Below are positions 24,486-47,152 of a stretch of 64,000 nucleotides of DNA, in pieces. The stretch spans positions 53,206 to 117,205 of the forward strand of contig JAFCMP010000176.1 of NCBI GenBank assembly GCA_017506865.1. The letters are read 5' to 3'. The position numbers and the translations under genes were made by a program. The stretch is from Tribonema minus (Eukaryota > Sar > Xanthophyceae > Tribonematales > Tribonemataceae). Within the stretch, counting starts at the first letter, position 1, and every line of letters begins with the position of its first letter. Below the pieces are notes generated by a model. It was given only the letters and a program-made list of their open reading frames with translations, ran no database searches and was not told the origin of the DNA.

Positions 24486-27400
24486 CTAATTGACATATAC
24501 TATGGTATTGCAGAACCGAACCGCTGGTGCTGTTGCAAGGGGCTGCCAGAAACTGCCAGTGCGCTCGCCAAGGAACGGTGACGAATGATGCAGTGTATAG
24601 ATGAGACGTGCCAGATGCTTGTCGCCTTTAGTCGCATGACCTTTATAGCGGTTTGCAAATGAGGGCAGCTGAGCCGTCAACTCATCCGGCTCTGCTGCAT
24701 CAATCGGGCATATGAATTCCACCGTGCCATTGGAAGCAATGTGTACCACATAGCCATCACAACTATCATCAGAGCCATCTACCCATGCAGCCAATGAAAC
24801 TCTTATGATGTCACCTTTAGCATATGGGCATTTTTCACGTGGTGCTGGTGCTGCAGCCGCTGATGGCCTGTCAGCCGGGTCACGGGGCACATGCTGTTGA
24901 TCACGCGTAGGCAAGTGTACATCTGGTGGAGGCGGCACCGCTACTTCAAGTTGTCGCTCAGTAGCCAGCTTCAGCCTACTACAGTGGATGTACTTCAACA
25001 TGACTTGCCCTGCATGCGTCGCCCGCAAAACATATGTGTCTAGCCCAGGTATTCGCCTTTCTACTACAAATGGACCCAACCAGCGTTCTGCTTTCAATTT
25101 CTTACTCAGCCCCTTACGAACGGGCGGATAGTGTACAAGAACATGATCTCCAGGTTCAAAGCGACGAGCAAACCCTTTCTCCTGCGCTGCCGCCGCCCGT
25201 AGCCTCTCCTCCTGCTCTTGTAGTGACACCTGTACCAGCCTGTGTCCTTCCTTGATGAGCTCATGAATTACGTGCAGGTGCTCAGCTGCTGACTTCCACC
25301 TGCGCGACAGCTCAGGTGCACGAAGATCTCCCAACATTGCCTCGAACGGCAGCAGGGGCTCACGCCCATATAACATGCGAAACGGTGACATGCCATACGT
25401 CGTGTTTGTGCAAGCTCTGTGGTTGAAAAGAGCCATGGGTAAGACTGAGTCCCAATTCTTCTGATTGTCTTCTACCATCATTGCCAGAAGGTTGACAAGC
25501 GTGCCGTTGGTGCGCTCAGTGAGACCATTGCATGCAGGGTGGTAAGGGGATGTGAAGCGCTGCTCAATGCCCACTAACCTAGTTAGCTCTTTCATCAGCA
25601 ACCCCCTGAACTCCTTAGCATTGTCACAGAGGAACATTTGAGGGCACCCGTGCCTTGGTATGATCTCACTGACTATGACACGCGCAACAGTGACTGCTGA
25701 TTTGTCAGGTATCGCAAAGGCCTCCGGCCACCTAGTCAGGTAATCCGTGAAGACCAAAATGAAAGTGTTGCCCCTGGCAGTCTTGGGCAGCGGTCCCACA
25801 ATATCGAAGCCTACCAATTGAAACGCATGCTGTAGATCTACATCTCCAAATCCATGCACACGCACACGCATATCGCGCTTGGACTTGCGCTTTTGGCATG
25901 CCAGGCAAGTCAGCACCCACTTGAAAACATCAGAATACATGCCAGGCCAGAAGTACCTGCGCCTCACTTTGTCATATGTGCGAGCAAAGCCACTGTGACC
26001 TCCACCAATCGCACCATCATGACATTCCTCAAACACGCGCTCTCTTAGTGACTTCGGTACCACTAGCAAGTCTGTGCCTGTCTTGTGGGACCTGCCACCA
26101 GCAGCAAAATGCATTCTCCCATTGCGCATGTAGTAGCCAGCGCGCTCAAATGCGCGAGCATCCTCAACTTCTCTAGGTGAGAGGCCATGTGGGGGACCAC
26201 CTGCTCTTAGACTAGTAGTCAAGTACTTCGCTACTTTCCCCAATACCGCATCCTTGCTCAGCGAAGATACCAAGTCGCCCGCTTCAAACACGGCGCGATG
26301 TCGTTGCCTATTACCATCTACTTTGCCACCTGTATCCTTGTTGTTGATGTCTTCATGGCCATCCTCCAATTCAGCCTCAAGGTCCATGTTCTCGTCGCCA
26401 TCTTCTGGGAACAGCTGAGCCACCCTGCTTGCTGTGATGTTGATTGACACTATCTTCACTCCAGCTGCATCGTCACATTCACAAGCGGCAGGCAAAACAA
26501 CAGACGAAAAATTTCCCGGAACAGGTGCTGGCCGCTGTATCCCCCCATGCTGCGAGGTCGTCGCTGCATCATTAGAAAAGGCCACACCTGCAGACACTGT
26601 GACGAAAGTGCCATCCCTGATACGCGAGAGGGCGTCAGCATTACCATTCTCTCTACCAGGCCTGTGCACAATGTCCATGTTGTATTCTTGCAGTTCTGAT
26701 ATGTAACGTTCCTGCCGCTTGGTGCGCGGTTCTGAGCCACCCATCAAGTGCGCTAATGCAGAGTGGTCAGTTTGTAGGATAAACGTGTTACCATTGTGCA
26801 AAAACTGTCTGAAGTAGTGAACTCCTTCCATTGCTGCTAGCGCTTCCCTATCATAAGTACCATAATTGCGTTCAGCACTTTTCAAAGTACGACTATAGTA
26901 TCCTATCGGGTGCTCTCCGTTGGTGGGGCATATCTGCGTTAACACCGCTCCCAGTCCATAGTCAGAAGCATCAGTCTGCAAAACCAACTTGACTGAGCCA
27001 TTGAGGATGCCTTTCAAATCGGGATGTGCTAAAACAGGGGATGTCTTCAAGGCCTCCTTGAGCACCTGCCACGCAGCAATGCAATCATCCGAGAGCTCAA
27101 ACGGTACACCTTTGCGAGTAAGGTTGACCAGGGGCTCCGTGATTGTTGAAAAATGGGAGATATACTGCCTGTAGTACGCTGCCACACACAAAAAGGAACG
27201 CACATCATGAAGGTCAGAGGGCAAAGGTATCTTCTCAATTGCCTCTACTTTTGATGGATCAACGCGCTTGCCCTGGGCATCTACGACATGACCCAGAAAT
27301 TTGACCTCCCGCATGGCGAAGTGACACTTGGACGGCTTCAGCTTTATGCCTACTGAGAGCAGTCGGCTCAACACTATCTCCAAGTGCTTCATGTGCTCTT

Positions 27401-28004
27401 TGAAGGTTTTGCTAAAAACCAGAATATCGTCAATGTACACCAGGGCGTACACCCACAGCGCATCATGCCCCATAGCAAGCTGCATTAGACGGTGAAAAGT
27501 AGATGGCATGTTCATAAGCCCCATAGGTCCCACCTTCCATTGATAGCACCCCCATTTGGTTTGAAAAGCCGTTATTGGTCTGGATTCTCTGTCCAATTCA
27601 ACATGCCAAAATCCAGCAACCGCGTCCATAGAGCTAAACCACTCAGAGCCATTCAACACTGAGTGCACCTCATCTATGCGCGGCAGCGGAAACCCATCCT
27701 GACCGCCACCACGCTCTTTCACTGCTTGATTAACCGCCCTCAAATCCTGCACAACTCTCATACCACCGTCTGGCTTTGGTATTATCATGAGAGGAGAGTT
27801 CCAGGGTGAATTTGACGGCTCAATCACGCCCTTCTTCAACAAGAAGTCAATTTCCTTCCATAAAACTTCAAGTTCTTTCAGACTATACTTTCGCAATCTG
27901 GAACGCACAGGCCTAGCATCTCCAACATCAATATGGTGGCGGACCAACGACACTTTTCCTGGCCTGTGCTGCCGCCAGTACCGCCGTGCCCGCCGCTGCC
28001 GCAC
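24486..28004 (-). CDS. pol: Ty3/Gypsy-type Pol polyprotein: RT, RNase H, integrase
   Basis: An intact frame of 1,172 codons. It begins almost at the RT domain (HHIDVGDARPVRSRLRKYS, residues about 22-40). The RT active site is VYIDDILVFSKTF at about residue 189. RNase H starts with LQTDASDYGLGAVL at about residue 345, with an NYGTYDREALAAM helix. The integrase has an HHCC finger (ECHDGAIGGGHSGF and CLACQKRKS, about 660-700), then DDE positions in GFDIVGPLP, FLCDNAKEF and NGLTERTNGTL. A GPF/Y-type module (RWLGPFVVERRIPGLDTYVL) and an extra Pro-rich tail follow. It lies in the -1 frame relative to the upstream Gag-like ORF, overlapping by about 127 bp. No protease domain lies between Gag and RT. 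LTRs were not found. Confidence 0.93.
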   Translation of the reverse strand: MRQRRARRYWRQHRPGKVSLVRHHIDVGDARPVRSRLRKYSLKELEVLWKEIDFLLKKGVIEPSNSPWNSPLMIIPKPDGGMRVVQDLRAVNQAVKERGGGQDGFPLPRIDEVHSVLNGSEWFSSMDAVAGFWHVELDRESRPITAFQTKWGCYQWKVGPMGLMNMPSTFHRLMQLAMGHDALWVYALVYIDDILVFSKTFKEHMKHLEIVLSRLLSVGIKLKPSKCHFAMREVKFLGHVVDAQGKRVDPSKVEAIEKIPLPSDLHDVRSFLCVAAYYRQYISHFSTITEPLVNLTRKGVPFELSDDCIAAWQVLKEALKTSPVLAHPDLKGILNGSVKLVLQTDASDYGLGAVLTQICPTNGEHPIGYYSRTLKSAERNYGTYDREALAAMEGVHYFRQFLHNGNTFILQTDHSALAHLMGGSEPRTKRQERYISELQEYNMDIVHRPGRENGNADALSRIRDGTFVTVSAGVAFSNDAATTSQHGGIQRPAPVPGNFSSVVLPAACECDDAAGVKIVSINITASRVAQLFPEDGDENMDLEAELEDGHEDINNKDTGGKVDGNRQRHRAVFEAGDLVSSLSKDAVLGKVAKYLTTSLRAGGPPHGLSPREVEDARAFERAGYYMRNGRMHFAAGGRSHKTGTDLLVVPKSLRERVFEECHDGAIGGGHSGFARTYDKVRRRYFWPGMYSDVFKWVLTCLACQKRKSKRDMRVRVHGFGDVDLQHAFQLVGFDIVGPLPKTARGNTFILVFTDYLTRWPEAFAIPDKSAVTVARVIVSEIIPRHGCPQMFLCDNAKEFRGLLMKELTRLVGIEQRFTSPYHPACNGLTERTNGTLVNLLAMMVEDNQKNWDSVLPMALFNHRACTNTTYGMSPFRMLYGREPLLPFEAMLGDLRAPELSRRWKSAAEHLHVIHELIKEGHRLVQVSLQEQEERLRAAAAQEKGFARRFEPGDHVLVHYPPVRKGLSKKLKAERWLGPFVVERRIPGLDTYVLRATHAGQVMLKYIHCSRLKLATERQLEVAVPPPPDVHLPTRDQQHVPRDPADRPSAAAAPAPREKCPYAKGDIIRVSLAAWVDGSDDSCDGYVVHIASNGTVEFICPIDAAEPDELTAQLPSFANRYKGHATKGDKHLARLIYTLHHSSPFLGERTGSFWQPLATAPAVRFCNTIVYVN

Positions 28005-29323
28005 ACGCTTCCGCCGCTAGCACCGCTGCCGTGTGCATCGCCGCGCGCGTCGTTGCAGCGAGCATCGCTGTGGCTGCTATTGCTGCGCGCGCCGTCGCTG
28101 CTGTTGCATGAGCCGCTGCTGCTGGGAGTGTCGCCGCTGCCCCCGCACATGACTGATGTAAGCGCCGCCATGGGCGCTAATGTTAGCGCCGCCGTGGGCG
28201 CTGATGTTGCAGCGATATCAACACCGCTGATAGCATCTCCACCGTTAGCACCCGTGTTTGTGGGCACACGCGCTGCCGCAGCGGCCGCCTGCGCACAAGC
28301 AAGCTGCTCACGCAACGCCGCGCTCGCACGCGCTCCCGCATCGCACACCATGTGTAGGTGCACGCTTTGAGCGTCAGCTGCAGCAAGCCGCTGCTGCAGA
28401 CCTTCCGCAAACGCTCTGCTGCTAGCAGCATCCTGCTGCAGCTCCGACACCCGCCTCCGCATTTGCGAAAGCAATGCTGAATCGTCAGCTGCTGCACCCT
28501 GTTGCTCACGCTGACGAGCGGGTGCTGGGATGCTGCTGGCCGCTGGTGTCACGGTGCTGGCTGATGAAGTGGTAAGCGACGCAGCCTGCACTGCAGCACG
28601 CAGGCCAGCATTCTGCGCTTCCAAACGCTGAACCTGCTGCTGCAGCTCCACTGCAAGCATAGCTGCTGCAGACGACTCCAGCTCCAGCACTCGCGCCTCC
28701 AGCGTACCTCGACGCGCTGAGCCCTCTGCTAGCTCCTGCTCCAAGTGCGCTTCCCCCTGCTCTAGCGCCTTGATTCGAGCCCACAGTCGGCCCTCTCGCC
28801 CGTCCGCCTCCTCCATCTGCTGCTCTAGGCGCTCGTTTACGCCTGTAAGCTGCTGCTGCAGTTGTTGCTGTTGCTGCTGGTGTAACTGCTGCTGTTGCTG
28901 TAGCCGCTCTTGCATCTGCTGCTGCATGTGTAGCTCCGCCAGCCTTGCCGCTACCGCTGCCTCCTGGCTGCTCACTGTACGATCTTGCAGCTGCAATACC
29001 CTCAGGTTTTCCTCAGCGACCCTTTCTTCTGTCTCCGCTAGACGCGTTTTGAGTCGTCGCTGAACACCAATTAGGCGCTCGCTGTCTGTATAGAAGTGCT
29101 CCAATGCATCGCATACACTCCAGAACTGCGGCTCAATCTGCGATCCCTTCATTTCCTCCATTCGCTGCCAGCTGCTGTATGGATTTCGTCCAACTGTGAC
29201 AAGCCAGTTGTGAATTTCCAATGCCTCCTCACGACTTATAGCAGCACGTTCCTCCCCCCACACCATTTTGCTGCAAGCAAGATGGCGTGCACGTGCTGTT
29301 GTTGAACCGATGCCGGCGTGCAC
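27878..29323 (-). CDS. gag: Gag-like coiled-coil ORF of the Gypsy element (lacks NC and protease)
   Basis: 481 codons. After an N-terminal segment with HNWLVTVGRNPYSSWQRM comes a long Gln-rich coiled coil (about residues 90-250, runs of QQQQLHQQQQQQLQQQL). A second coiled coil and a low-complexity Ser/Gly/Asp tail follow. No CCHC knuckle or retropepsin motif is visible. The last about 30 residues read the RT start in the wrong frame. Expression of Pol would need -1 frameshifting or an internal start. An internal deletion of capsid, nucleocapsid and protease is the simplest reading. The assignment as Gag is by position and style, not by a diagnostic motif. Confidence 0.6.
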   Translation of the reverse strand: MHAGIGSTTARARHLACSKMVWGEERAAISREEALEIHNWLVTVGRNPYSSWQRMEEMKGSQIEPQFWSVCDALEHFYTDSERLIGVQRRLKTRLAETEERVAEENLRVLQLQDRTVSSQEAAVAARLAELHMQQQMQERLQQQQQLHQQQQQQLQQQLTGVNERLEQQMEEADGREGRLWARIKALEQGEAHLEQELAEGSARRGTLEARVLELESSAAAMLAVELQQQVQRLEAQNAGLRAAVQAASLTTSSASTVTPAASSIPAPARQREQQGAAADDSALLSQMRRRVSELQQDAASSRAFAEGLQQRLAAADAQSVHLHMVCDAGARASAALREQLACAQAAAAAARVPTNTGANGGDAISGVDIAATSAPTAALTLAPMAALTSVMCGGSGDTPSSSGSCNSSDGARSNSSHSDARCNDARGDAHGSGASGGSVCGSGGHGGTGGSTGQEKCRWSATILMLEMLGLCVPDCESIV

Positions 29324-36176: not shown

Positions 36177-36670
36177 GCGTCTGTGTGCATTGCGAACGGC
36201 AAGTTGAAGTCAGCGTGTGATACCACTGGTAACTTCGCCGAGCACATGTCATTTTTCAGTGCCGCAAAGGCGTCGTCAGAGCGGCAAAGGTGTCCTGTCT
36301 TTGTCATGATGCATCTGCATCTGTCTTCGTCATCTCCACTTGTAGTAATGGTGCAGCCAGCTTGGCGAAGTCCTGCACATAACGCTGCCAGTGGTAGTAC
36401 TTAAAGCAGCCAAGCACAGTGCGCATGAGGCTCTTGTCAACTCTACAGTTCCAAAGAAGTTCTGGTGAAGTGGGGCGCTCATGTCTGCCATAGCCTTCAC
36501 CCTGCCAGGGTCAGGGCGTATGCCACCTGAGCCCGCAAATCAGAAATGTGATTTCAGTTTAAAACCATCAGCGCTCATGTCTAGACATGCTCAGTCCAGC
36601 CTTTTCAATCCTTGACAGCACATCTTTTGTTACGGATTGTACATTGTGGTATCCGTGTCTGATGATGTCA
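36177..36670 (-). pseudogene. Decayed Gypsy-type RT/RNase H fragment
   Basis: Read on the - strand in alternating frames. VLSRIEKAGLSMS and GFKLKS match the post-palm RT region. GIRPDPGRVKAMADM matches the GIRxDPxKV block, and YYHWQRYVQDFAKLAAPLL matches the YYRxFIxDFAxIAxPL block. AFAALKNDMCSAKLPVVSH followed by FAMHTDA matches the start of RNase H. Several frameshifts and stops are present, and no catalytic YxDD part remains. By strand and order it could be the displaced pol end of the - strand DNMT element at 42.8-47 kb. Confidence 0.75.
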
Positions 36671-36824
36671 TTATTAGGGCATACCCCTGGTATGTCGAGT
36701 GATGATGCAGGGTTTCATACAAGTTACTCCTGAATCAGATCCCCTGAATTGTGCCGAGGGTCCAATTGCAACTTGCCAAAAAGGCAGCTGCACAATCACT
36801 CCCAATCTCTCCCTCCTGGCACAA

Positions 36825-37075
36825 GACAGCTATAGCTGAGGACACCCCCACCTCCACAGGTCTCCACCAACAACAAGGTAAGTTAGCATGCTGTAGCACA
36901 CTGCTGAGCTCTCCTAAAACAGTGGCAACCAAGACAGCTATAGCTGAGGAAAACAGTGGCAACCAAGACAGCTATAGCTGAGGACACCCCCACCTCCACA
37001 GGTCTCCACCAACAACAAGGTAAGTTAGCATGCTGTAGCACACTGCTGAGCTCTCCTAAGACAGTGGCAACCAAG
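36825..37075. repeat. Nested tandem duplication (about 140-bp and 35-bp units)
   Basis: GACAGCTATAGCTGAGGA occurs at 36,826, 36,933 and 36,968. The larger unit, from there through CTCCACCAACAACAAGGTAA and GCTGAGCTCTCCTAA, occurs at 36,826 and 36,968. A short extra unit with AAACAGTGGCAACCAA lies between. Confidence 0.9.
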
Positions 37076-37932
37076 AGACAGGCGCTTTGTGTGTCTTCCG
37101 CTTAATCGCGAGGCCTCGCTACGCGATACCTATAACGTAGATTAGTGTCGTGAGTGTCCTCTGCCTTAACTGCGGAGCCACGCTAAGCTCGACCACCCTC
37201 CGTAGGCTTCCAGGGTAGCACAGCGTAGTGTAGCACAGCGTAGCGTAGCACAGCTTGAACGTACACATCGTGGCCGCCTCTCGTGGCCAGCTAACGGCAA
37301 TTAACCGTACACATTCGTGCCGCCTGCCGTGGCCAGCTAACCTCAAGTAGGACGCTCCGCCTTCGAAGCAGAGTGGCAGTTGCGATGTGTTTGTGTGTGT
37401 GTTACAAGTGTGCACGCGACAGCAATTGCCGAGCTCGCGTAGCTCCTTAGCTACGAAGTCTCCTGTGCTGCTCACACAGGCACGCGTGTAGTGCATCACA
37501 TGGCCAGCATTGACAGCACCACGTCGTGTTGCGTGCTGCGGGCTGAGGCAATTGCTAGAGCAAGCAGTCAGTAGGGCATCATCATTATTCGTAAGTCTGC
37601 GCGCCGTGTGTCAGCACGGCACTGCCCTCTCTTTACGCTCATATTGCGTTAACGCACGTGTTGGTGCGCACCCACGTTGCATGTCGTGACGTCTCCCATA
37701 GCCATGGTGGTAGGGCTGTGGGGTGCACATGCCCCTTTCCTTTTCGCTCCTGAGCGTCCCCAGCATCACCTTTGACAGGGGGGAGGATTGGGTTACAACA
37801 GCATAGTGCATCTGATGCTGTGCCCGCTGTTTTCGTTGGTTAATGACCACAGACGCAGAGCACAAATCCACCACTGACTGCTTGCCACAGATCATCCTGG
37901 GCTCATCTCTTTTCTGCTTTGCCGCGTAGCAG
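37076..37932. other. Leader side of the + strand DNMT element, no gene
   Basis: Contains TAGCACAGCGTAG repeats near 37,215-37,255 and a purine tract (AGGGGGGAGGA) near 37,777-37,788. The tract resembles a polypurine tract, but no LTR could be delimited. Confidence 0.35.
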
Positions 37933-40440
37933 ATGACTGACAACGGTGCCGGGAACGCTGCTGGAACCCAAGGGCCCAGGCGCACCTCCAAGTCTGGCGG
38001 GTCGCGCCGCGACGCCCAAGCAGCTGCGGACACAAGCGTCGCCGATCGCCCCTCTCGCCGCGCCAACGCCCAGGCCGCTGCTGAGGCTGCAGCCAAGGCG
38101 GCGGAGGAGCCCCCACCTCGCCAAGGACGCGCATGCTCCCGCTCTGGCGCGGAGGACACCTCTAACTCGGAGGACGGCGCAGGCGGACAGCACCGCAATG
38201 GCGACGCCCCGGCGAGCCCAAACCGTGATGATCCCCCTGAGCGTCGCGCAGTGTCTCGTGCACAGGATGCTGCCGTGCAAGACCTTTTTCGTGCTTCCAA
38301 GACCATAGCTCTCGTGCCTGAACCCCCGGCTGACGCGCCCGAGGAGTTCAAAGAGCTGCTTGCCGCCTTCCGTGCGGAGCACGCGCAACTTGCCAGCTGA
38401 CGCTTGTCGTTCTTCTGAGGCTGTCTCACGCCTCAAAGCCGCTCTGATCGTGGCCGACTCCGACATCGACCGGACTAAGCGGGCCTTGCTCAAAGTCAAC
38501 GACCAACATGAGCGCAGTGAGCTTGAACGTAAGCTTGTGGCTTTCTCCTGTGACAAGTCTGAGGTTGAGGCAGCTCTCCAGACTTTCCGCCTTTCCTGCG
38601 AGGAGAACGTTGCCCAGTGCACACTGGTGCGCGAGCTGGCCGTCCATGCCATCAACCTCTACAAAGCTGGCGCAACTTATGACGACATCCTCGCCGCTGT
38701 CGACGCCAAACGCAACCCACATGCAGGTGTGACTAACACCTCCCCCACTTGCACTGTCTCGCATGATGCTCGTGACCCTGGCAAAGAGCGTGTTGCTCAG
38801 CTCAACATCATCGCAAAGCTCCCTTCTCAGCTCTCGTTAGAACCTATGCTATCGAGTCATCCATTGCTGCTCGCGAAAGGCTCTGAAATGAGATGGGTGT
38901 GAAGCAGGAGTACTGGGCGGTTGCTCTTGACCAAGCCATTCCTTCGGACAAGCGTTCTGAAGTGAATGGGCTCTCAGCCATTATCAACGGTGTCACCACC
39001 GGGTGGGACACACTAACCTACCCTCAGCGCGTCGCAGCCCAACCGCCAAGTATGATGATTGGACTGCGCTGCACACCGTTCGCGATGAGTGGTCTCGCCT
39101 CACTTACAATTGGCGCGCTGAATCTCCCCGTGACTTCTTTGACAAGCTTGATGTCTTTGGTCGCCGGGTGGAGGGAGGCTCTAGTGTGGCCACGCGGCGC
39201 GAGAAGTTCTACAACTGCATGCCAGACTTTGTCAAATGCGAGCTTGACAGGCGTGACAACTTTTGGGATGACCCGCTCCCTGTTAGCATGAACCACGCCT
39301 CAGCTGTGTGGCGCACGCATCTGCAGCAGAATGGGATTCCTCTCCCAGACTCGTCTCCCAGCGACCTCTCTGCTGCTTCTTCCCTCTCCACCCCCGCCAA
39401 AGGCTCTGCGGCGCAGGTGCCAGACCTCAGCAGTCTTCCGCGCCGCAAGGCGATGAGGGAAGAGAAGAACCAGGAGCGAGTGCAGGCGGAAAGACGGGTT
39501 CAAGTCCCGTAAGAGACAAGGAGGCGCTCAAGGCTGACGACTCCAAGGCCGCCTACGCCCAGCTCCACGCCATTTACGGGCAGTCCCTGCCGGCCGCGCC
39601 CCAGGGCGGCGGCAAGGGCAACGGCAAGCGGAAGCACCCCGCAATTGGCGAGCCGGCGTCGAACCCCAAGCCTGGCCTGCCTTATGCTCCCCACAACAAC
39701 TGGGAGTGCAACCGCTGTGGCGCCATCGTCACCACCGGCGAGCGCTATGCCGACCACCACAACTCGGCGGAGTGCAGAGACAACAGGCGCCCCGGCAACG
39801 GCCGCAGCCGCGACCGCCAGCGCGACCGGCGCGACAGGGCCCCTACTCCAGCGCCTGCGCCGGCGCCCGTCTTCGCCGTGCAAGCAGCGCCCATGTACAC
39901 TGTGCCTCAGCCGGTGGCTCCTCAGCTCGCCGCCGTCCAGACCACCGCGCCGCCCACGGCGTGGCACACCACATACCAGATGCCAGCAGCCGCGGCGCCA
40001 GCGCCGGCGCCAGCGCCCGCCCCAGCCGCAGCGCCGACCGCCGCCGCCGCCGCCGTGCAGCCCTGGCCTGACATGAACGCGGCCTTCGCCGCCTTCCTGG
40101 CTCAGCACGCTGCTGGCACCAACAACAACAGTGAGTACATTTCCTCAAAGCGACTGCGCACCTCTGCCACTCGTAGCCAGTCTGCTTTGCTCGCCACGTT
40201 GGGCGTCATCGCGTCCACCCCAACTGCACCTCAGTACGCGCCGAGCGCTGCTGCAGCAGCTGCGTCTGCACCCACGCCTGTTGCAAGTACCCCTGTTGCG
40301 TCTGCGACATTGCATGCTGCGCGCGCTGCATCTGCATCTACGCCTGTTGCAAGTGCCCTGCTGCACCTGCAACACCGCATGCTGTGCGTGCTCCTGCTGC
40401 AACTGCACCTGCTGACACTGGCATGACTGCACCGCCGGCA
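37933..40440 (+). pseudogene. Gag region of DNMT retroelement 1 (frameshifted), with a zinc-finger-like motif
   Basis: Consecutive frames continue one another. 37,933-38,400 is a charged Ala-rich N terminus ending EEFKELLAAFRAEHAQ. Then come 38,400-38,880 (coiled coil, DIDRTKRALLKVNDQHE), about 38,890-39,050 and 39,050-39,510 (capsid-like helices, RREKFYNCMPDFVKC). Last is 39,520-40,440 with CNRCGAIVTTGERYADHH followed by NSAEC, a C-x2-C...H-x4-C type finger, and a Pro/Ala-rich linker. At least four single-base-type shifts separate the pieces. No CCHC knuckle of standard spacing is present. The assignment as Gag is by position before DNMT and protease. Confidence 0.6.
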
Positions 40441-40549
40441 CCCTTCCATGCACGCCCTCACGTGGCTGTTCCCCCTCCCCCTGCTGCTGCGACCCCTGCC
40501 GCGCCTCAGACGAGTGAGCGCGCTAGGGAGCAGGCAACGGAGCGCCATC

Positions 40550-41445
40550 TCACGCACGCGTCGCTGTGCTGTGGGATTGGCGGTTGGGAGGAAGGGTTTG
40601 CGCAGGCAAGTAAACTTGGCTTGCATGTCAGCACAGTGGTTGGGAGGAAGGGTTTGCGCAGGCAAGTAAACTTGGCTTGCATGTCAGCACAGTGCTCGCT
40701 GTTGACAACTGCGCAAAGACGTGTGACGCGTATAGGGAGACTCACCCTACGTCTGCCGCGCCCCAGTGCATGTCATTTGATGATCCCCGCATCATCCACC
40801 AACTGCGCAAGCTGCGCCCTCACCTCACCACCGCCTCTACCCCTTGCACAGATTTTGCAAACGGGGAGGGAGTGGAGGGAGAGGCAGCGGAGCTGACATA
40901 CAAGCTGGCCAAGGTGGTTACGGAGGCAGAACTTGAGTTGGTGTTGTCAGAGAACGTCCCGCAGATGCTCAAGTCGCAAGCATGGGGTAGGGGGGAGGCC
41001 CACCTGTTGGCCAACGGGTACGCAGTTTTAGAGACGGTCATCAAGGCATCGGAGCTTGACACCTGCTGCAGGCGTACGCGCGCGCTCGTCCTCATTGTGC
41101 GCAACCGCCTTGGTGTCAAGGCCGCGCTCCAGCGCCTTTGCGCAGTCCTCAATGCCATGTGCAATAATGGAATTCCACTTTCCATGAGACATGTTCTGAA
41201 GGTTCCACGCCGTGTTCGCGGTTGCTTCTTGCGCCCTCGCGTGCGTTCCTCCAAAGGCGTGCATGACCTTGATGGACTGTTTGGCAGCCCCACGCGTCGC
41301 TGGCCTGGCTTGCCTCCTGTGAACCCTGCTCACTACATCCCATCCCCCGATGACGCATGTGATGTACGTGATGCTATGACTGTCACCCCCCACGACATGG
41401 CGCTCATGCTGACATACAGGTCTGACTTTGCCAGCTGGCAGCCAA
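40550..41445 (+). pseudogene. Cytosine-5 DNA methyltransferase domain in retroelement 1, broken by a 56-bp duplication
   Basis: C5-methyltransferase motifs in order: motif I SLCCGIGGWEEGFAQA (about 40,560), motif IV TASTPCTDFANGEG with the catalytic Cys after Pro (about 40,835), motif VI LVLSENVPQMLKS (about 40,945) and a motif VIII-like TCCRRTRALVLIVRN (about 41,070). The enzyme family transfers methyl from SAM to cytosine C5 in DNA. A perfect 56-bp tandem duplication (40,583-40,694) right after motif I shifts the frame, so this copy cannot make the whole domain. A clear motif X was not found. The frame also shifts near 41,445. It is flanked by Gag upstream and protease downstream, so it is part of the element, not a host gene. 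Confidence 0.85.
40583..40694. repeat. Perfect 56-bp tandem duplication inside the DNMT
   Basis: The unit from GTTGGGAGGAAGG to CATGTCAGCACAGTG is repeated exactly at a 56-base period. 56 is not a multiple of three. Confidence 0.97.
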
Positions 41446-41792
41446 GAGCAGTTGCAGCTTTGGCTGGCCAACCTTGTCATGCCTGATGTCGCCCACGCAT
41501 TCTTGCTTGCTGCATGGTGCAGTGGCATCTTTGACATGCAAGAGTCCAGCCCCTCTGATGATGGCTTTGCAATGTCATTGGATCGCAACGTGCCCACACC
41601 TGAGTGGCTCGCTGACAGCACTGCCGCGCTTGAGCACACAGACGGCACGGCCTCACGAGAGACGCAACACACGCTCGTGCAACGCTGCATCAACGCTGTC
41701 CAACGCATCTCCCGCGACAGCGAAAGCACAGCACGTGCCAAGCTGTCTGCAGCGAAAGCACAGCACGTGCCAAGCTGTCTGCAGTCGACTTA
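41430..41792 (+). pseudogene. Linker region between DNMT and protease of retroelement 1
   Basis: The open frame with LWLANLVMPDVAHAFLLAAW appears to continue the DNMT reading after a shift near 41,445. It ends at a 32-bp perfect tandem duplication (41,720-41,783, unit AGCGAAAGCACAGC to GTCTGC) that moves translation into the protease frame. No domain was recognised. Confidence 0.5.
41720..41783. repeat. Perfect 32-bp tandem duplication
   Basis: Two exact units carrying CACAGCACGTGCCAAGCTGT. 32 is not a multiple of three, and the duplication coincides with a change of reading frame. Confidence 0.97.
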
Positions 41793-42890
41793 GTGCCAGA
41801 CAACACTGGTGAGCAGGAGAGCGACACAGACGCGGTCGCGCCCAGCTTTCTCAGAGATGCAGCACCTGACCCAGTCTCTGCAGACGCTGACTCTGACACT
41901 GAGCCCATGGACTGCTCAAAAGAAGGGGGAGAACTCCAACAACCCCAACTTCAACTTCAACAACAGCCCCTTGCAAACCTCGCAGCGCTTAGCTCTTCTC
42001 ACGTGCCTGTGCAGCCAGGCGAGAAGGTGGCCTACGCCACAGGCAGCCCCAGCGCACAACGGTTCATCAGCCTCATCACACGCATGCCCCACCAGCGAGA
42101 CATCAAAGAGCTGAACATGGAGCGCATGCTGGACAACGGAGCCACGGCAAGCTTGCTGAGCATACAGCAGAGCAGACGGCTCCCAGAGGGTAGCGTACAA
42201 CCGCTGCGACAGGGTGACTTCACCGCCATCGAACTTGCAGAGAGCAAAACGCGCATCCCTATCACCGGCGCGGTGCAAATGACTCTGCGGTTCAGGAAGA
42301 CCCTCGTTCGTCATCGGTTTTATGTGACCGACATACCCATGCCTGCCATCATCGGCGGCGAGCTTGGGAGCTTTGGCAGTAGCTTGTCGTACTCTACGAT
42401 GGAGTTCTTCCCCACGCCAGACTCCAGCGTTGCCATCCCCATGCGGCACAAGCGAGACGACAAGGCATCGAAGCTGTGCAACTTCAAGGGCCTCGTGGAC
42501 AGAGTCGTCGCAGCCCCTGCTCCCACGCCCACTGCCAAGCGCAGTGCACGCCTCCTAGAGGAGGTTGTGATGTCACCATTCTCAGAGCAAGTGGTCGAAC
42601 TCGCACTGTTCCCGCCTCCCAAGGACACGCCAGAGCACACTGCGTTGATTCACGCAAGCCATGACCAGGTGATGGAGAGCCTAGCTGCGCAGGGCCTTCG
42701 CGTAGCCTTCACTGCGGTCACAGTCGCACCCAACAACCCTGTCATGGTCAAGCTTATCAACACTGGCTCCTTGCCTGTCCTCATCCGCAATAACACCTTT
42801 GTGGGCACAGCCATTCCTGCCACGGCGCCGCTTTGTAGGCAGGCCGCACTCGTTGCCACTGATGACGTTGTGGCTGTGGTCGAACCCTAA
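41793..42890 (+). CDS. Retropepsin-like aspartic protease region of retroelement 1, truncated at its C end
   Basis: 365 codons. MLDNGATASLLS (about residue 112) fits the D-[ST]-G-A active-site loop with Asn in place of Thr/Ser. IPMPAIIGGELG (about 180-192) fits the hydrophobic I-[IL]-G strand. Later, VELALFPPP and VLIRNNTFVGTAIPA resemble the spacer that precedes RT in Gypsy-type Pol. The sequence leaves the family near 42,820; the last 20 or so codons are antisense to the DNMT of retroelement 2. RT, RNase H and integrase are absent. The D-N-G variation makes activity doubtful. Confidence 0.65.
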   Translation: MPDNTGEQESDTDAVAPSFLRDAAPDPVSADADSDTEPMDCSKEGGELQQPQLQLQQQPLANLAALSSSHVPVQPGEKVAYATGSPSAQRFISLITRMPHQRDIKELNMERMLDNGATASLLSIQQSRRLPEGSVQPLRQGDFTAIELAESKTRIPITGAVQMTLRFRKTLVRHRFYVTDIPMPAIIGGELGSFGSSLSYSTMEFFPTPDSSVAIPMRHKRDDKASKLCNFKGLVDRVVAAPAPTPTAKRSARLLEEVVMSPFSEQVVELALFPPPKDTPEHTALIHASHDQVMESLAAQGLRVAFTAVTVAPNNPVMVKLINTGSLPVLIRNNTFVGTAIPATAPLCRQAALVATDDVVAVVEP

Positions 42891-43430
42891 GCCCTGAGCT
42901 AGGTCTAGAGTCTGCTGGAACTCAGGTGTGCTCAGGAATCCCACCACGTTCTCCAATAGCACCATGCGCACTGTGCTGATTGCCGCTGAGACCTGCAGCT
43001 TGCTGATGATGCACTGTATGCCCTTCTGAGAGCACCGTTTGCCTGACATGCTGAAGTCAGTGCATGGGGGTCCACCGCTAGAGACCTCAACCCCCAGTCG
43101 GCATGCCTCCGCTATGATGTGCAGTTGAGCGCTGCGGTGACCGTCGTTGATGTTAGCAGGCATTACTGTAGTGCCGCAGTGGTTGCTGGCAAACAGTTTG
43201 CACGCCCGCTCGCAGATGTCTGACGCCAGCACTGTGTCCACAAACGGTTTTGCGCCCTCGCTAAGCCCCTCTGCACCACAGAAGAGTTCCATGGCTTTGG
43301 GCTTGCGGACTCCGAGGTTGCTGAGCAGTGGACTGCCGAACTCGTTGCAGCTGCGCTCAGAAATCGGCGAGTCCTCCATCGCGAGCGCACGGCCAATGGA
43401 GTGGCCGGGATCTGCTTCCCCAGGGTCGGG
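42822..43430 (-). pseudogene. Cytosine-5 DNA methyltransferase domain in retroelement 2, truncated within motif VIII
   Basis: Motifs in order on the - strand: motif I KAMELFCGAEGLSEGAKPF (about 43,290), a SAM-pocket-like VLASDICERACKLF, motif IV SSGGPPCTDFSMSGKR with the PC catalytic pair (about 43,065), motif VI MVLLENVVGFL (about 42,955) and motif VIII CGLPTKRRR (about 42,840). The frame runs past this into antisense of the protease ORF of retroelement 1, so the rest of the domain (target recognition, motifs IX-X) is missing. It is the same frame as the upstream CCHC ORF, separated from it by one UAG. The sequence differs strongly from the DNMT at 40.5 kb. Confidence 0.85.
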
Positions 43431-43451
43431 ACAATCCCCTGGGTGGCACCC

Positions 43452-43770
43452 CTATGGGTCCATCGTTCGAAGTTTCTCATTAATCCAAGCTGTGACATGG
43501 CGCGGCCTAGTGTTTTTGTCCATTGCATTCCACTCCTTCTTCAACTTCTGAGTGTTGTTAAAGTGGACGAGATTCTTAGCGCCTTGGCCCCCCTTACTCC
43601 TGGACGTGTCATTGTTGGTGGCATTGTACGCTTTCGGGCAGTCACGCCAGGTGTGGCCGAGAACTGTGCAATTGGCGCATACAAATTCAGGCTTGCCACC
43701 TGGCTGTACTTGATGCATTTTTAGACCCTTGCCCTGATCCTTGTCTCTCTTGGGGGCTAAATGTCGCTGT
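43452..43770 (-). CDS. CCHC zinc knuckle (nucleocapsid) of retroelement 2
   Basis: FVCANCTVLGHTWRDCPKA is a C-x2-C-x4-H-x4-C knuckle, the retroelement nucleocapsid signature for RNA packaging. It is followed by a basic linker. The frame continues upstream without a stop to about 43,790 (APKRDKDQGKGLK). The ORF ends with UAG at 43,452-43,454, and the DNMT continues in the same frame behind it. The context is UAG-GGG. Confidence 0.8.
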
Positions 43771-43791
43771 GAGTCAGGGAAGGGATGCCAC

Positions 43792-45072
43792 CTAACGGCC
43801 TGATGGTTGGTAGCATGCTTCGAAGCTTCGTCTTATCCCGTACTTCATTGACAATGTCAAGTGCTTGCATGCGGCCTTGTGCGTAGGCGTCACTGCTCGA
43901 GATGTTTTCCATGAGTTGAAGTAGACCTTGGAAAGTGTTCGAGAAAACTTGACTGCGAAGAAGGGCCGCATTTGACGGTACGGGTCGTTCTCAGAAGTGA
44001 ATGCCTCAGCGATGTTGACTGCGCTAGCATATTGGCTGATGGCATCCTCCAGGCTCGTGCCTTCGGGGACTGTGAACTGCTCCAATGCTTGTGAGTACTG
44101 GTCAGGGTTCCCCTTGTGCAATACCTCTGCAATTTCAACTTCAACTTTCTTTAGCAGAATTGAGTCAGGCATGCCACCTGTCTCCTCCTTGACGCGCCGA
44201 TCTATCATGCCATCGATGTGGTTCGCCAGGCGCTCTGCACTGGCTAGCCCTACTTTCTTGTTGATGCACTCTTTGACGAGCAACAAGTAGGTACGCACCC
44301 AGTCACACTGATAGTTGAAGTCAGAGTGGCGCAGGTGCTCAATGTGGCGCAACCCGCGGGGTTCATTCCGCCTGCTTACATCTCTAGTGCATGCAGTGGT
44401 CACAGCATCACGCAGTTTCTTCAGCACGTCTGGAAGCCACTTGGCGTTGGTCAGGTAATCATTGGGTGGTATTGACAGCCCTACTGGCTTTTTGATCTCG
44501 GGTTTGGCGCGCTCACCTCTTCCATCATGGCGGTCCGATGCTGAGAATGATGTGCTGGTGGAGTGCGCTACTGATCCCGCCATACTGCGGGTATCACCGC
44601 TGTCTCCCCCGCCGCCGCCTCCGCCGCCACCACCGCTGCCGCCACCGCCGCCGCTGCCGCCGCCGCCGCCACCACCATTTCTGCCACCGCTGCCCCCGCA
44701 GCCTCCGCCCCCAGGACCCCCGGCGCCGCCCAACCCCCTGCCGCCGCCGCCAAGATCGCCGCCACTGCTGCTGTCATCTCCTCCACCGCCGCCGCCGCCA
44801 CCAGCGCCGCTGCAGGCCGGAGGGGTGAAGCTGGGCGACTGCGATCCGCGCATGGCGTGCTCATCACGTTGTACCATGGCGTCCGCCTGGTCCGCTGTCA
44901 GGGCTGCTACAATCGTGGGGCCAGTGGTGCGCCACAGTCGCAGTGTCTCCAGCACACCGTTGTGCCAAAGCATTATCTGCTCCAGCGCGCCATCAGGTAC
45001 TGGCTGTCCCCTCGACATGTCGCCATACAGTCCTGCGATGGACATGCGCATGTCTGCTATGTCGCGTTCCAT
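43792..45072 (-). CDS. gag: Gag capsid-like region of retroelement 2
   Basis: 426 codons. The N-terminal helix segment is MERDIADMRMSIAGLYGDMS. A Gly-rich spacer of about 80 residues follows (44,570-44,810 is GGN/GGA-coded). Then comes an alpha-helical region (WLPDVLKKLRDAVTTACTRD, YQCDWVRTYLLLVKECINKK) that fits a retroelement capsid. After about 43,985 a different frame is more protein-like (DAYAQGRMQALDIVNEVRDK near 43,880). The last 60 codons of this ORF are therefore probably out of frame because of a one-base shift. It overlaps the upstream coiled-coil ORF by 16 bases. Confidence 0.65.
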   Translation of the reverse strand: MERDIADMRMSIAGLYGDMSRGQPVPDGALEQIMLWHNGVLETLRLWRTTGPTIVAALTADQADAMVQRDEHAMRGSQSPSFTPPACSGAGGGGGGGGDDSSSGGDLGGGGRGLGGAGGPGGGGCGGSGGRNGGGGGGGSGGGGGSGGGGGGGGGGDSGDTRSMAGSVAHSTSTSFSASDRHDGRGERAKPEIKKPVGLSIPPNDYLTNAKWLPDVLKKLRDAVTTACTRDVSRRNEPRGLRHIEHLRHSDFNYQCDWVRTYLLLVKECINKKVGLASAERLANHIDGMIDRRVKEETGGMPDSILLKKVEVEIAEVLHKGNPDQYSQALEQFTVPEGTSLEDAISQYASAVNIAEAFTSENDPYRQMRPFFAVKFSRTLSKVYFNSWKTSRAVTPTHKAACKHLTLSMKYGIRRSFEACYQPSGR

Positions 45073-46973
45073 GCGTGTGACGTGGGCATAATCGCGCGAA
45101 GGTGCATGCCTGAGAGGGTGAGACCGATCTGGCCATCGTTCGTGGCGGCTCGCTGCGGCCGCGCGCCCTGCGCCGCCGCTGCCGCGGCGGCCGCTGCCGT
45201 TGTTGCCGCTGCTGCTGCAGTGGCCGTTGACTCTGCCGCCGCCGCTGCTGCAGCTGCCGTTGCTGCTGCTTTGTCTGCTGCTTTCTGGTCCAACATCTGC
45301 TCCAGCTGTCGGACGGACCGTACTGCACCTGCTGCCGATGCAGGAGCCGTTGTTGCTTGAGCGTTGGCAATCCGCTGCTCTAAGCCCGTGGTAGCTTGCC
45401 GCACCTTTGTTGCTTCGAGCTTGGGTGCCTTGAGCTCGAGCTGCCGGTTGCGCGCCTCGCAGCGTGCAATGCTCTCACGCAGTTTGCTGGCACTCGACGT
45501 GAGCGCTGCTGCTGCGAGGGAAGAGCATGATGGGGTGCTGGGCGCAGCGCCATCCGATTCGTCGTCGCTGTCGCCGTCGTCGTAGAACTCGTCGCTGTCT
45601 CCCAAGAAGGCGTCGTCTTCAAGAAGTTCAAGGTGAGGTGGTGTCGGCGGTGGCGATTTGTTGGCTGCAGCGGCGGGAGATAGCAGTCCACCGCCGCGTG
45701 CTGCTGATGCGTTGCTGACTGCCGCTGCGCGTGTACCGCCGCGCGCTGCCGGTGCGTTGTTGGCTGCGGCGGCGGTAGGCAGTGCTCCGCCGCGTGCTGC
45801 CGGTGCGTTGTTGGCTGCAGCGGTGGTAGGCAGTGCTTCGCCGCGTGCTGCCGGTGCGTTGTTGGCTGCGGCTGCGGTAGGCAGTGCTCCGCCGCGTGCT
45901 GCCGGCATGTCGTCATTGGCGTTCGAGTTGACGGCCGGTTCAGGGCTAGGTGAACCCCGCAGTACCTCGAACCTTGAGTTGCTTGGCGGTGCGGCGCCGT
46001 CGCTCAGGCTGCTGCCGCGAGTCGTGGTTCGGCCTCTGGCGGAGCGCTGCTGCCCCTGTACCATGAAGCCTGCGTTAGGGTCGATAGCAGGAGTCTCTGC
46101 CGTGGAGCGCTGCTGCCAGAGAGTGAGCTCCGCAATCTGCACCTGCTGAGCCATGATGGTGTCGTTGAGCAGGACGCTACTCGCTTCCGCTGCTACCGCT
46201 TGGCTCCTCTGCTGGTCTAGCAGTCCTTGCTGAAACTGTTTCATGCTCGCAGAGAGGCTGGCTATTGCATCCATCTTGACATCCAGCTTGGCCGCCGTGG
46301 CCTCTGCTAGTTCCTGGGCGCGTTGCTCAGCTTTAGCAGCCCTGGCCACCATCTCCCCATGAGACGTGTTGAGGCTGTTGCGCGCCGCGTTCCTGTCCTT
46401 GAGTCGAGCGGACGCAGCGTGTTGCTCCGCCGCTGCTGCCGCTGCCAATGCGCGCTGCTCAGATGCCTGCAGTGTCTCCGCCGCATTTCGGACTGCTGCT
46501 ATGTGGGCTGCAGCAGTAGTCAGTGCAGTGAGCTCCTCCATGCTCTGCGAGAAGCGTAAGTTGTACGCTGCCACCTGCTGTGTGAGCACGACGCTTTGAC
46601 CAGCTATGGTGACGTGAATGCCCTGCAGTTGAGCACTGATGTCTGCCAGCTGATCATCCTGCTTGTCCGCGCGCTCCTCCAGCGCCACCGCCGAGTCAGC
46701 CAGTATAGCCGTTGTGTCCTGTAGCTGGGAAAATACAGGCGACTCTGTGACTTTGCGGGCCGTGTAGCGGATGAGCTGCTGTTTGAGGCTCTCAGTGTGC
46801 CTGTCGTCGTCCGTCGCGGCGATGTCCTCTGCCGATGCTGCCACAAGAGCCGTCTGCTCCATGCTGAGTGCGTTGGGTGCCGCTGTCCTTGCGGTACCTT
46901 CAGTCTGCTGAGTGGGGGTTCTCGTTGTTGCTGCCGCCTCGGCAGCATTGTCCATGGGAGCCATCTGCTCCAT
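45057..46973 (-). CDS. N-terminal coiled-coil Gag-like ORF of retroelement 2
   Basis: 638 codons. Ala/Gln/Glu-rich coiled coils occupy about residues 60-290. A linker contains four to five near-identical repeats of NNAPAARGGALPTAAAA type (about 45,700-45,910). An acidic stretch (DDAFLGDSDEFYDDGDSDDE) and another Ala/Gln coiled coil follow. Its style and position match the N-terminal ORF of the Gypsy element at 29.3 kb. No nucleic-acid-binding motif is present in this part. The next Gag ORF starts 16 bases before its stop, so frameshifting or reinitiation would be needed. Confidence 0.6.
   Translation of the reverse strand: MEQMAPMDNAAEAAATTRTPTQQTEGTARTAAPNALSMEQTALVAASAEDIAATDDDRHTESLKQQLIRYTARKVTESPVFSQLQDTTAILADSAVALEERADKQDDQLADISAQLQGIHVTIAGQSVVLTQQVAAYNLRFSQSMEELTALTTAAAHIAAVRNAAETLQASEQRALAAAAAAEQHAASARLKDRNAARNSLNTSHGEMVARAAKAEQRAQELAEATAAKLDVKMDAIASLSASMKQFQQGLLDQQRSQAVAAEASSVLLNDTIMAQQVQIAELTLWQQRSTAETPAIDPNAGFMVQGQQRSARGRTTTRGSSLSDGAAPPSNSRFEVLRGSPSPEPAVNSNANDDMPAARGGALPTAAAANNAPAARGEALPTTAAANNAPAARGGALPTAAAANNAPAARGGTRAAAVSNASAARGGGLLSPAAAANKSPPPTPPHLELLEDDAFLGDSDEFYDDGDSDDESDGAAPSTPSCSSLAAAALTSSASKLRESIARCEARNRQLELKAPKLEATKVRQATTGLEQRIANAQATTAPASAAGAVRSVRQLEQMLDQKAADKAAATAAAAAAAAESTATAAAAATTAAAAAAAAAQGARPQRAATNDGQIGLTLSGMHLRAIMPTSHAWNAT
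45700..45910. repeat. In-frame repeats of 60 bp within the Gag-like ORF
   Basis: GCCGGTGCGTTGTTGGCTGC then GGTAGGCAGTGCT and CCGCGTGCT recur every 60 bases. The period is a multiple of three, so the frame is kept. Confidence 0.9.
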
Positions 46974-47152
46974 GTTTGATGTTGAGGCCGTTGTGTTGGC
47001 CCTGACATCTTATTCCCCTATTAAGACTTGCCCCTTGTTGGGGGGTTTACAAGTGTTCGTGGTCATGAGATCTGCAGGAGCACACAACTGAGAGCTTGAG
47101 CAACAAGACCAAGTAGAGGCACAGTGACTGAAGCCACCCAACAACATCCACT

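Follow-up and report, generated by a model that had tools for sequence, protein, structure and literature searches.

What are two dissimilar cytosine DNA methyltransferases (DNMTs) doing in retroelements that meet tail to tail in the genome of the xanthophyte alga Tribonema minus (Xanthophyceae), and how often did such elements acquire a DNMT? The question is raised by a stretch of 64,000 nucleotides, here called the window (contig C176, positions 53206-117205, in a genome of 158.18 Mb and 554 contigs), in which two distinct DNMT retroelements, A on the + strand and B on the - strand, lie tail to tail between about 36,628 and 47,018. The profile PF00145 (DNA_methylase) matches the + strand open reading frame (ORF) 40614-41486 at E=3.6e-10 and the - strand ORF 43451-42681 at E=3.9e-16, and better-preserved relatives of the two, the loci L051 for A and L007 for B, are 25% identical by BLASTP. 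A sequence-only reading of the window had seen two different DNMT lineages within 3 kb, and this is borne out. With moderate confidence, we favor a history in which Ty3/gypsy polyproteins of this single lineage of algae captured a DNMT at least twice and probably three times, after which the domain came under purifying selection and a module comprising the DNMT and the protease (PR) was exchanged between Gag backbones.

DNMT positions in the better-preserved relatives

In what follows, family letters and L numbers denote DNMT loci fetched from the genome, and C numbers denote contigs. Across the genome, the PF00145 profile gave 123 scored matches among 378 candidates, listed above the curated cut-off, while searches with the DNMTs of A and B returned 16 other loci (93-96% protein identity over the best piece) and 9 other loci (82-95%, also over the best piece), respectively. 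Stop-free frames of at least 3,000 codons, counted irrespective of the position of the DNMT in them, contain 29 of the 135 scored hits to the A DNMT. Full-length-type relatives with reverse transcriptase (RT) and integrase (INT) were found for both families, with long terminal repeats (LTRs) in the A copy examined, so that the expectation of further genomic copies flanked by gag and pol held good.

That the two DNMTs might instead be host genes or pseudogenes lying beside retroelement debris is hardly credible. The host probably does have DNMTs of its own, as indicated by a DNMT2-like exon on C523 and by the literature, where T. minus is reported, in the part of the source consulted, to lack DNMT1 and to possess the maintenance-type enzyme DNMT5 together with HELLS and CDCA7 (PMC10538959). 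Each window domain, however, is a member of a family scattered through the genome, in which gag, a PR motif, RT, and integrase lie around the DNMT, and not a single-copy host gene; a host-gene identity was rejected for both on this basis.

The family A copy on C290 forms one frame of 3,129 codons (read as 2,432 and 696 in two adjoining stretches) with the order Gag-like region, zinc finger, DNMT, protease motif, RVT_1, RNaseH, H2C2, and rve, and its LTRs, the only ones examined, are direct repeats of at least 862 bp that are 100% identical. Over 3.8 kb, it shares at least 99.97% identity with four more loci of family A, giving five such loci in all. From the identical LTRs and the near-identical loci, these insertions are judged to be recent. 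The LTR of C290 is followed by TGGCACTCGAACC, which we take to resemble a site where the 3' end of a tRNA would bind as primer. In this copy, at least about 360 bp at the beginning of the 3' LTR are also covered by the last part of the polyprotein frame (L052:1727-2090).

Pfam gives the same pol order, RVT_1, RT_RNaseH, Integrase_H2C2, and rve, for A and for B, while the locus L068 on C509 reads RVT_1, RNaseH, DNMT, Integrase_H2C2, and rve, with the Ty3 RT 4ol8 as the best Protein Data Bank (PDB) match of its RT-RNaseH part (E=2e-47). The order RT-RNaseH-integrase (rve), by which Ty3/gypsy elements are recognized, is present in the relatives, both window copies ending before RT, and the long terminal direct repeats of such elements are present in C290. 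Judged by this domain order, the A and B families carry a DNMT fused into a Ty3/gypsy-type polyprotein.

Three positions of the DNMT can be told apart: before PR (slot 1), between PR and RT (slot 2), and between RNaseH (RH) and INT (slot 3). The full slot-1 order, Gag-DNMT-PR-RT-RH-INT, is seen in A, and the DNMT-PR order also in C, D, E, F, G, M, and N. Slot 2 is seen as PR-DNMT-RT in B, I, and J, the B family as a whole reading Gag-PR-DNMT-RT-RH-INT, and as the PR-DNMT order in O, Q, and H; slot 3, RT-RH-DNMT-INT, is represented by the single locus L068. In a motif map of 19 loci, which include close relatives (A and L039, two B loci, two H loci, and I and J), PR motifs lie downstream of the DNMT in 9 of 10 slot-1 loci, in C by an ILG motif alone, and upstream of it in 7 of 8 slot-2 loci, the remaining one, L005, having a degenerate motif. 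The DNMT of L068 follows RT in the same map.

Pfam matches reproduce one example of each order: DNMT at 512-660 and then gag-asp_proteas at 1076-1159 in L019; gag-asp_proteas at 366-457, DNMT at 628-809, and RVT_1 at 1333-1490 in L058; and RVT_1 at 262-423, RNaseH at 515-631, and DNMT at 688-850 in L068. In the last, a stop codon lies between the DNMT frame and a frame in the same phase that contains Integrase_H2C2 (E=1.9e-18) and rve (E=2.6e-16). As RNaseH and DNMT are joined in a single protein of 285 amino acids from a JGI metagenome (P0131), slot 3 probably did not arise through an error of assembly. A search with the slot-2 profile also returned P0109, a hypothetical protein of Tribonema minus that is 85% identical over 24% of the query and that, read by eye, likewise shows the PR-DNMT order. 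Predicted structures were made for P0001 (mean predicted local distance difference test score, 68.0) and P0011 (79.9), and no conclusion is drawn from either.

These orders overturn the idea, drawn from the window alone, that both elements hold their DNMT in one shared slot between nucleocapsid and protease. The DNMT of A precedes PR, whereas that of B follows PR and precedes RT, and the window copy of B gives the appearance of Gag, knuckle, and DNMT in succession because an internal deletion of 2.94 kb at 43,409 took its protease. A shared slot is ruled out both by this deletion and by the slot orders of the relatives L019 and L058, and the choice that had been posed, between one capture that diverged and two captures into the same slot, consequently does not apply.

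Number of captures, selection, and module exchange

The phylogeny of the domains was examined in a maximum-likelihood tree of 40 DNMT rows and 164 columns spanning motifs I-VIII. The tree left out 96 of 109 eligible database proteins through a 45%-identity cull, together with P0109 and with P0001-P0004, P0012, and P0131-P0133, these last being partial or near-duplicate. The slot-1 DNMTs form one clade (support, 97/86) and the slot-2 DNMTs another (100/99), and other DNMTs, mostly unnamed database rows along with M.HhaI and DNMT1, are drawn between the two on a backbone without resolution. It is because different slots coincide with different DNMT clades that separate captures are favored.

For comparison of the RTs, the window offers a DNMT-less Ty3-like element (24486-29323, - strand) with RVT_1, RNaseH, H2C2, and rve, in whose two ORFs a DNMT domain was not found. 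The RT of A is 35% identical to that of this element, 35-36% identical to those of I and J, and 27% identical to that of B; B and I share 66%, and L068 stands at 23.5-26% from all.

Several results weigh against the favored reading. The slot-3 DNMT joins slot 1, weakly and on a long branch (84/72), and constraining the element DNMTs to group together was not rejected by the approximately unbiased (AU) test, either for slots 1 and 2 (p-AU 0.371) or for slots 1, 2, and 3 with the L014 and L017 rows (p-AU 0.357). The RT of A is as near to the slot-2 elements I and J as to the DNMT-less element, and an RT tree of seven rows is likewise without resolution (p-AU 0.18). As to the slots themselves, the tenth slot-1 locus, K (L006), has no PR motif within 2 kb after motif I, and the protease calls consist of motifs (of the D.G[AC] type and IIG or ILG, in most families) and of gag-asp_proteas scores that all fall under the Pfam cut-off (E=9.9e-5 in L019, 5.7e-4 in L058, and 0.053 in L029), with no Pfam protease match in L010, L018, L055, L056, and L054, family B being among these. 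With regard to a possible action of the enzyme on the element itself, the fetched DNMT loci show no general CpG depletion of the kind that CG self-methylation might leave, the observed/expected ratio being about 0.8-1.1 in most of them (lowest in L064, 0.61, and L065, 0.75) and 0.78-0.79 in the surrounding sequence of the window.

It is therefore conceivable, if doubtful, that a Ty3/gypsy ancestor captured a DNMT once, long ago, and that the domain later moved between slots by recombination of polyprotein modules. The AU results, the weak grouping of slot 3 with slot 1, and the 35-36% RT identity of A to I and J are all consistent with such a history, and module exchange is itself real, since the DNMT-PR cassette of A occurs with either of two Gag backbones, the breakpoint lying near 40,250. 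Against it, clades and slots of the DNMTs agree in the rows of the tree, the recombination that is observed swaps the upstream Gag and leaves the slot unchanged, and the RT of A resembles those of slot 2 (27% for B and 35-36% for I and J) no more closely than it does that of the DNMT-less element (35%).

The exchange can be followed in detail within family A, for which 9 of the 16 other loci were compared. The DNMT region is 96-98% identical in all nine, and the Gag falls into two kinds: L039 has that of the window (97% over 39,114-40,250), whereas the other eight, C290 included, have a C290-type Gag that is 66-67% identical to the window. As the Gag differs while the DNMT region is alike, the DNMT-PR module of A is carried by two Gag backbones. 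In 50-nucleotide bins, identity of the window to L051 rises from 0.50-0.78 over 40,001-40,250 to 0.80-1.00 downstream, while that to L039 is 0.92-1.00 throughout. The mosaic breakpoint is placed accordingly at about 40,250 (+ strand), some 300 bp upstream of motif I, with the Gag of the alternative backbone, A', upstream and the module common to both subfamilies downstream.

Purifying selection on the DNMT is in keeping with the substitution ratios obtained by the Nei-Gojobori method. In the close pair I-J, the ratio of nonsynonymous to synonymous substitutions (dN/dS) is 0.07 for the DNMT (dS 0.41), 0.05 for RT, and 0.05 for PR, so that in this one close retroelement pair measured selection maintains the DNMT with roughly the strength that it has on RT. 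Wider pairs give DNMT ratios of 0.10 (O-Q), 0.19-0.22 (C-D, F-G, B-O, H-I, and C-E), and 0.31 (A-C) at dS values of at least 1.5, near saturation; the U-T pair (L014/L017) gives 0.23 at dS 0.15, and infinite dS makes the ratio unusable for B-Q and for two B-I comparisons.

Of the catalytic residues, all 9 slot-1 rows have the Cys in motif IV, EN in motif VI, and RxR in motif VIII, and all 5 slot-2 rows have the Cys, ENV, and RxR. Motif IV reads SNC in L068 and SSC in G. In family G, the frames of which reach about 3,180 codons, both fetched copies (L057 and L066) show SSC instead of PPC, and the Cys is kept.

As to the outside relatives of these domains, the slot-1 profile A1 matches 46 PDB chains, among them DNMT2, M.HhaI, M.HaeIII, and DNMT1, and also 7r76 at E=0.0074; the slot-2 profile A2 matches 42, among them DNMT2, DNMT1, and bacterial enzymes including M.HhaI and M.HaeIII; and L068 matches three chains of bacterial type. 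Among solved structures, DNMT2 tRNA methyltransferases score best with both profiles (E=1.5e-13 for slot 1 and 4.3e-13 for slot 2). DNMT3 chains are present in the PDB; the 46, 42, and 3 matches of the three slots include none of that name. Judged by these matches, the DNMTs of slots 1, 2, and 3 do not look DNMT3-like.

Other DNMTs of the genome stand beside these families. L001, L002, and L003 (C223 and C181) are standalone DNMTs of 367-390 codons, of which L002 and L003 are near copies; in the tree, M.HhaI is the partner of L001 and L002 (95/93), apart from the retroelement DNMTs, and the three are possibly of viral or bacterial origin. A scan of viral_contigs with L002 found nothing, and one with the slot-2 profile A2 gave 51 pattern matches and none confirmed, both scans being pattern based and thus weak as exclusions of a viral source. 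A further dispersed family, L014, L016, and L017 (C212 and C312), has frames of 553-1204 codons, L014 and L017 being 92% alike, and RT or protease was not noticed in its 3.5-kb loci, which were inspected by eye only.

The window copies and their junction

Borders of the window elements were mapped by BLASTN against copies of both families. A and B appear to be the remains of two Ty3/gypsy-type LTR retrotransposons from different families, both dead and truncated, that together make up one composite feature, and, going by their reading frames, neither copy can make a whole DNMT. The domain orders first read here, Gag, DNMT, and protease on the + strand and Gag, CCHC knuckle, and DNMT on the - strand, stand as seen; their extent does not, as the elements occupy about 36,628-47,018 and not 40,550-43,430. 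Similarly, motifs I, IV, VI, and VIII had been reported for both DNMTs and are indeed present, with the qualifications that motif I of A lies in a separate frame, that motif I of B reads FCGAEG, and that B ends after motif VIII. The Gag regions of A and B have no Pfam match.

Element A begins with a partial 5' LTR and leader at 36628-37076 (+ strand; LTR part 36,628-36,927, partial repeat from 36,964), which matches each of the two C290 LTRs at about 92.7% identity and contains an internal direct repeat (36,822-36,934 and 36,964-37,076). Its broken Gag region, of the A' backbone, spans 37351-40250 (+) with ORFs in several frames and holds, as read by eye, a C2HC-like zinc finger at about 39,707-39,775. 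In 19 of 19 bins over 37,351-40,200, this Gag is at 0.50-0.77 identity to the C290 copy; its match with L039, on C446, is limited on one side by the start of the L039 sequence at the equivalent of 39,045. The DNMT domain, at 40531-41532 (+), has motifs I, IV (TPCTDF), VI (SENVP), and VIII distributed over three frames and is predicted to be non-functional: motif I lies in ORF 40177-40896, motifs IV, VI, and VIII in ORF 40614-41486, and the last part in ORF 41413-41793. A perfect 56-nucleotide tandem duplication at 40582-40693 (+) covers the motif I region at the first frame break, and the exact 56-mer is absent from L039 and L051. Another perfect tandem duplication, of 32 nucleotides, lies 3' of the DNMT at 41718-41781 (+); that exact 32-mer occurs once in L039 and is absent from L051. 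The protease region (MLDNGATAS ... AIIGG; 41634-42823, +, in ORF 41634-42890) has no Pfam protease match in the window copy, shows the same motifs as those after the DNMT in L051 and L039, and ends at the junction with B.

Element B, on the - strand, has its DNMT domain at 42822-43295. Close copies match ORF 43451-42681 only up to residue 210, and residues 210-256 are antisense of A-family copies and not DNMT; the FCGAEG of motif I is FCGAGG in three fetched close copies. The scar of the internal deletion is at 43409 (-), where 42,821-43,409, corresponding to 6260-6836 of L053, meets 43,409-47,018, corresponding to 2777-6370 of L054. In the C550 copy, these two blocks are 2,940 bases apart, and the missing piece holds the protease motif and a repeat-rich region, which is why the window copy is without a protease. 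A CCHC zinc knuckle of Gag follows at 43632-43682 (-; zf-CCHC E=0.021, below the Pfam gathering score) and then the Gag region at 43683-47018 (-), 94.8% identical to L054 up to 47,018, where the sequences diverge.

The two elements join at 42821-42823 with a 3-nucleotide microhomology (CAC), the BLASTN blocks ending and starting at 42,823 and 42,821. Insertion of one element into the other is ruled out, as the join interrupts the protease region on the A side and the DNMT on the B side and has no LTR. Such a position points to an illegitimate rearrangement or an aberrant reverse-transcription product rather than an insertion boundary, and an assembly join at 42,821 may be considered as a further possibility.

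Elsewhere in the window, an ORF at 4172-5032 (+) matches a Chlam_PMP repeat and a right-handed beta-helix. Outside it, two RuBisCO large-subunit fragments (C334:714136-714324 and C112:516888-517037), each with one TGA and each on a large contig, are probable nuclear inserts of plastid DNA, the C334 fragment presumably being of the red lineage.

Possible substrate, precedents, and meaning for the host

Position inside the polyprotein implies that the DNMT would be made together with Gag and Pol, could be packaged, and could meet complementary DNA (cDNA), genomic RNA, or primer tRNA. It may be hypothesized that the DNMT, once packaged in the particle and then freed by the protease, would methylate nascent cDNA, or RNA, before integration, with activity, substrate, and benefit to the element all putative. 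That the substrate might be RNA (genomic RNA or the primer tRNA) and not cDNA seems unlikely to us, although the idea has to be taken seriously, given that among solved structures slots 1 and 2 come closest to DNMT2. The tRNA-like reading of TGGCACTCGAACC and the absence of general CpG depletion would fit an RNA substrate as well, whereas M.HhaI for slot 1 and DNMT1 for slot 2 score nearly as high as DNMT2, no DNMT2 chain is among the three PDB matches of slot 3, and DNMT2 stands apart in the tree on a long, fully supported branch.

A cDNA substrate has been proposed before. De Mendoza et al. report, in the sections of the paper seen, that SymbioDIRS DNMTs give de novo CG methylation in yeast and propose cDNA methylation, and SymbioDIRS is likewise described without a significant CpG difference (PMC5890265). 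The same sections describe many retrotransposon DNMT copies in Symbiodinium, as SymbioDIRS-Dnmt3 and SymbioLINE-Dnmt, with two SymbioDIRS structures of different domain order. T. minus resembles Symbiodinium in the many DNMT copies within retrotransposons and differs from it in machinery: SymbioDIRS-Dnmt3 has a tyrosine recombinase, in contrast to the rve integrase of the three elements scanned here, and SymbioLINE-Dnmt, a LINE, has no LTR or integrase, unlike A, B, and L068 with their integrase and C290 with its LTRs.

A nearer parallel is KnitGypsy-Dnmt3 of Klebsormidium nitens, in which a DNMT lies in a Gypsy-type polyprotein ORF present in several intronless copies under purifying selection, again as far as the source sections go (PMC5890265). 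The fusion into a Gypsy-type polyprotein and the purifying selection on the DNMT are common to both. KnitGypsy-Dnmt3 is, however, described there as DNMT3-related, with DIRS-like repeats and as one element type, whereas in T. minus there is no DNMT3-named PDB match, C290, the one copy examined, has direct LTRs, and three DNMT positions are found in a stramenopile alga.

Other Gypsy elements have captured accessory domains of different kinds. Orchid Ty3/gypsy elements have, in the excerpt seen, an m6A demethylase in a separate ORF (PMC9289625), which is also a captured nucleic-acid-modifying enzyme, but one acting on RNA and not fused into the polyprotein as the DNMT is here. Ectocarpus Gypsy elements carry chromodomain, Tudor, or NADAR domains, with a Tudor-bearing homologue reported from Tribonema minus itself (PMC12477816); accessory-domain capture is thus repeated in stramenopiles, there with chromatin readers or NADAR and, in the text seen, with no retroelement cytosine DNMT described. 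For streptophyte algae, Copia and DIRS DNMT elements are mentioned "as previously reported" in the portion available (PMC12344493). Within the parts seen of open-licence PMC papers, DNMT retroelements are described only for dinoflagellates and streptophyte algae, and none for Xanthophyceae or with three slots.

The present analysis adds a stramenopile host, with Ty3/gypsy-type DNMTs that match no solved DNMT3, with three polyprotein positions, and with apparently young copies of family A. The different slots provide an anatomical handle on the number of captures, which the trees leave undecided. The genome is also a natural setting in which to ask if the DNMTs of retroelements work for the element, through methylation of cDNA or RNA, or shape the methylome of the host. 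It might even be speculated, improbable as we consider it, that three independently captured retroelement DNMTs are the main source of de novo cytosine methylation in T. minus and that the DNMT5 machinery of the host propagates their marks; if this were true, the host methylome would be partly authored by its own Ty3/gypsy elements.

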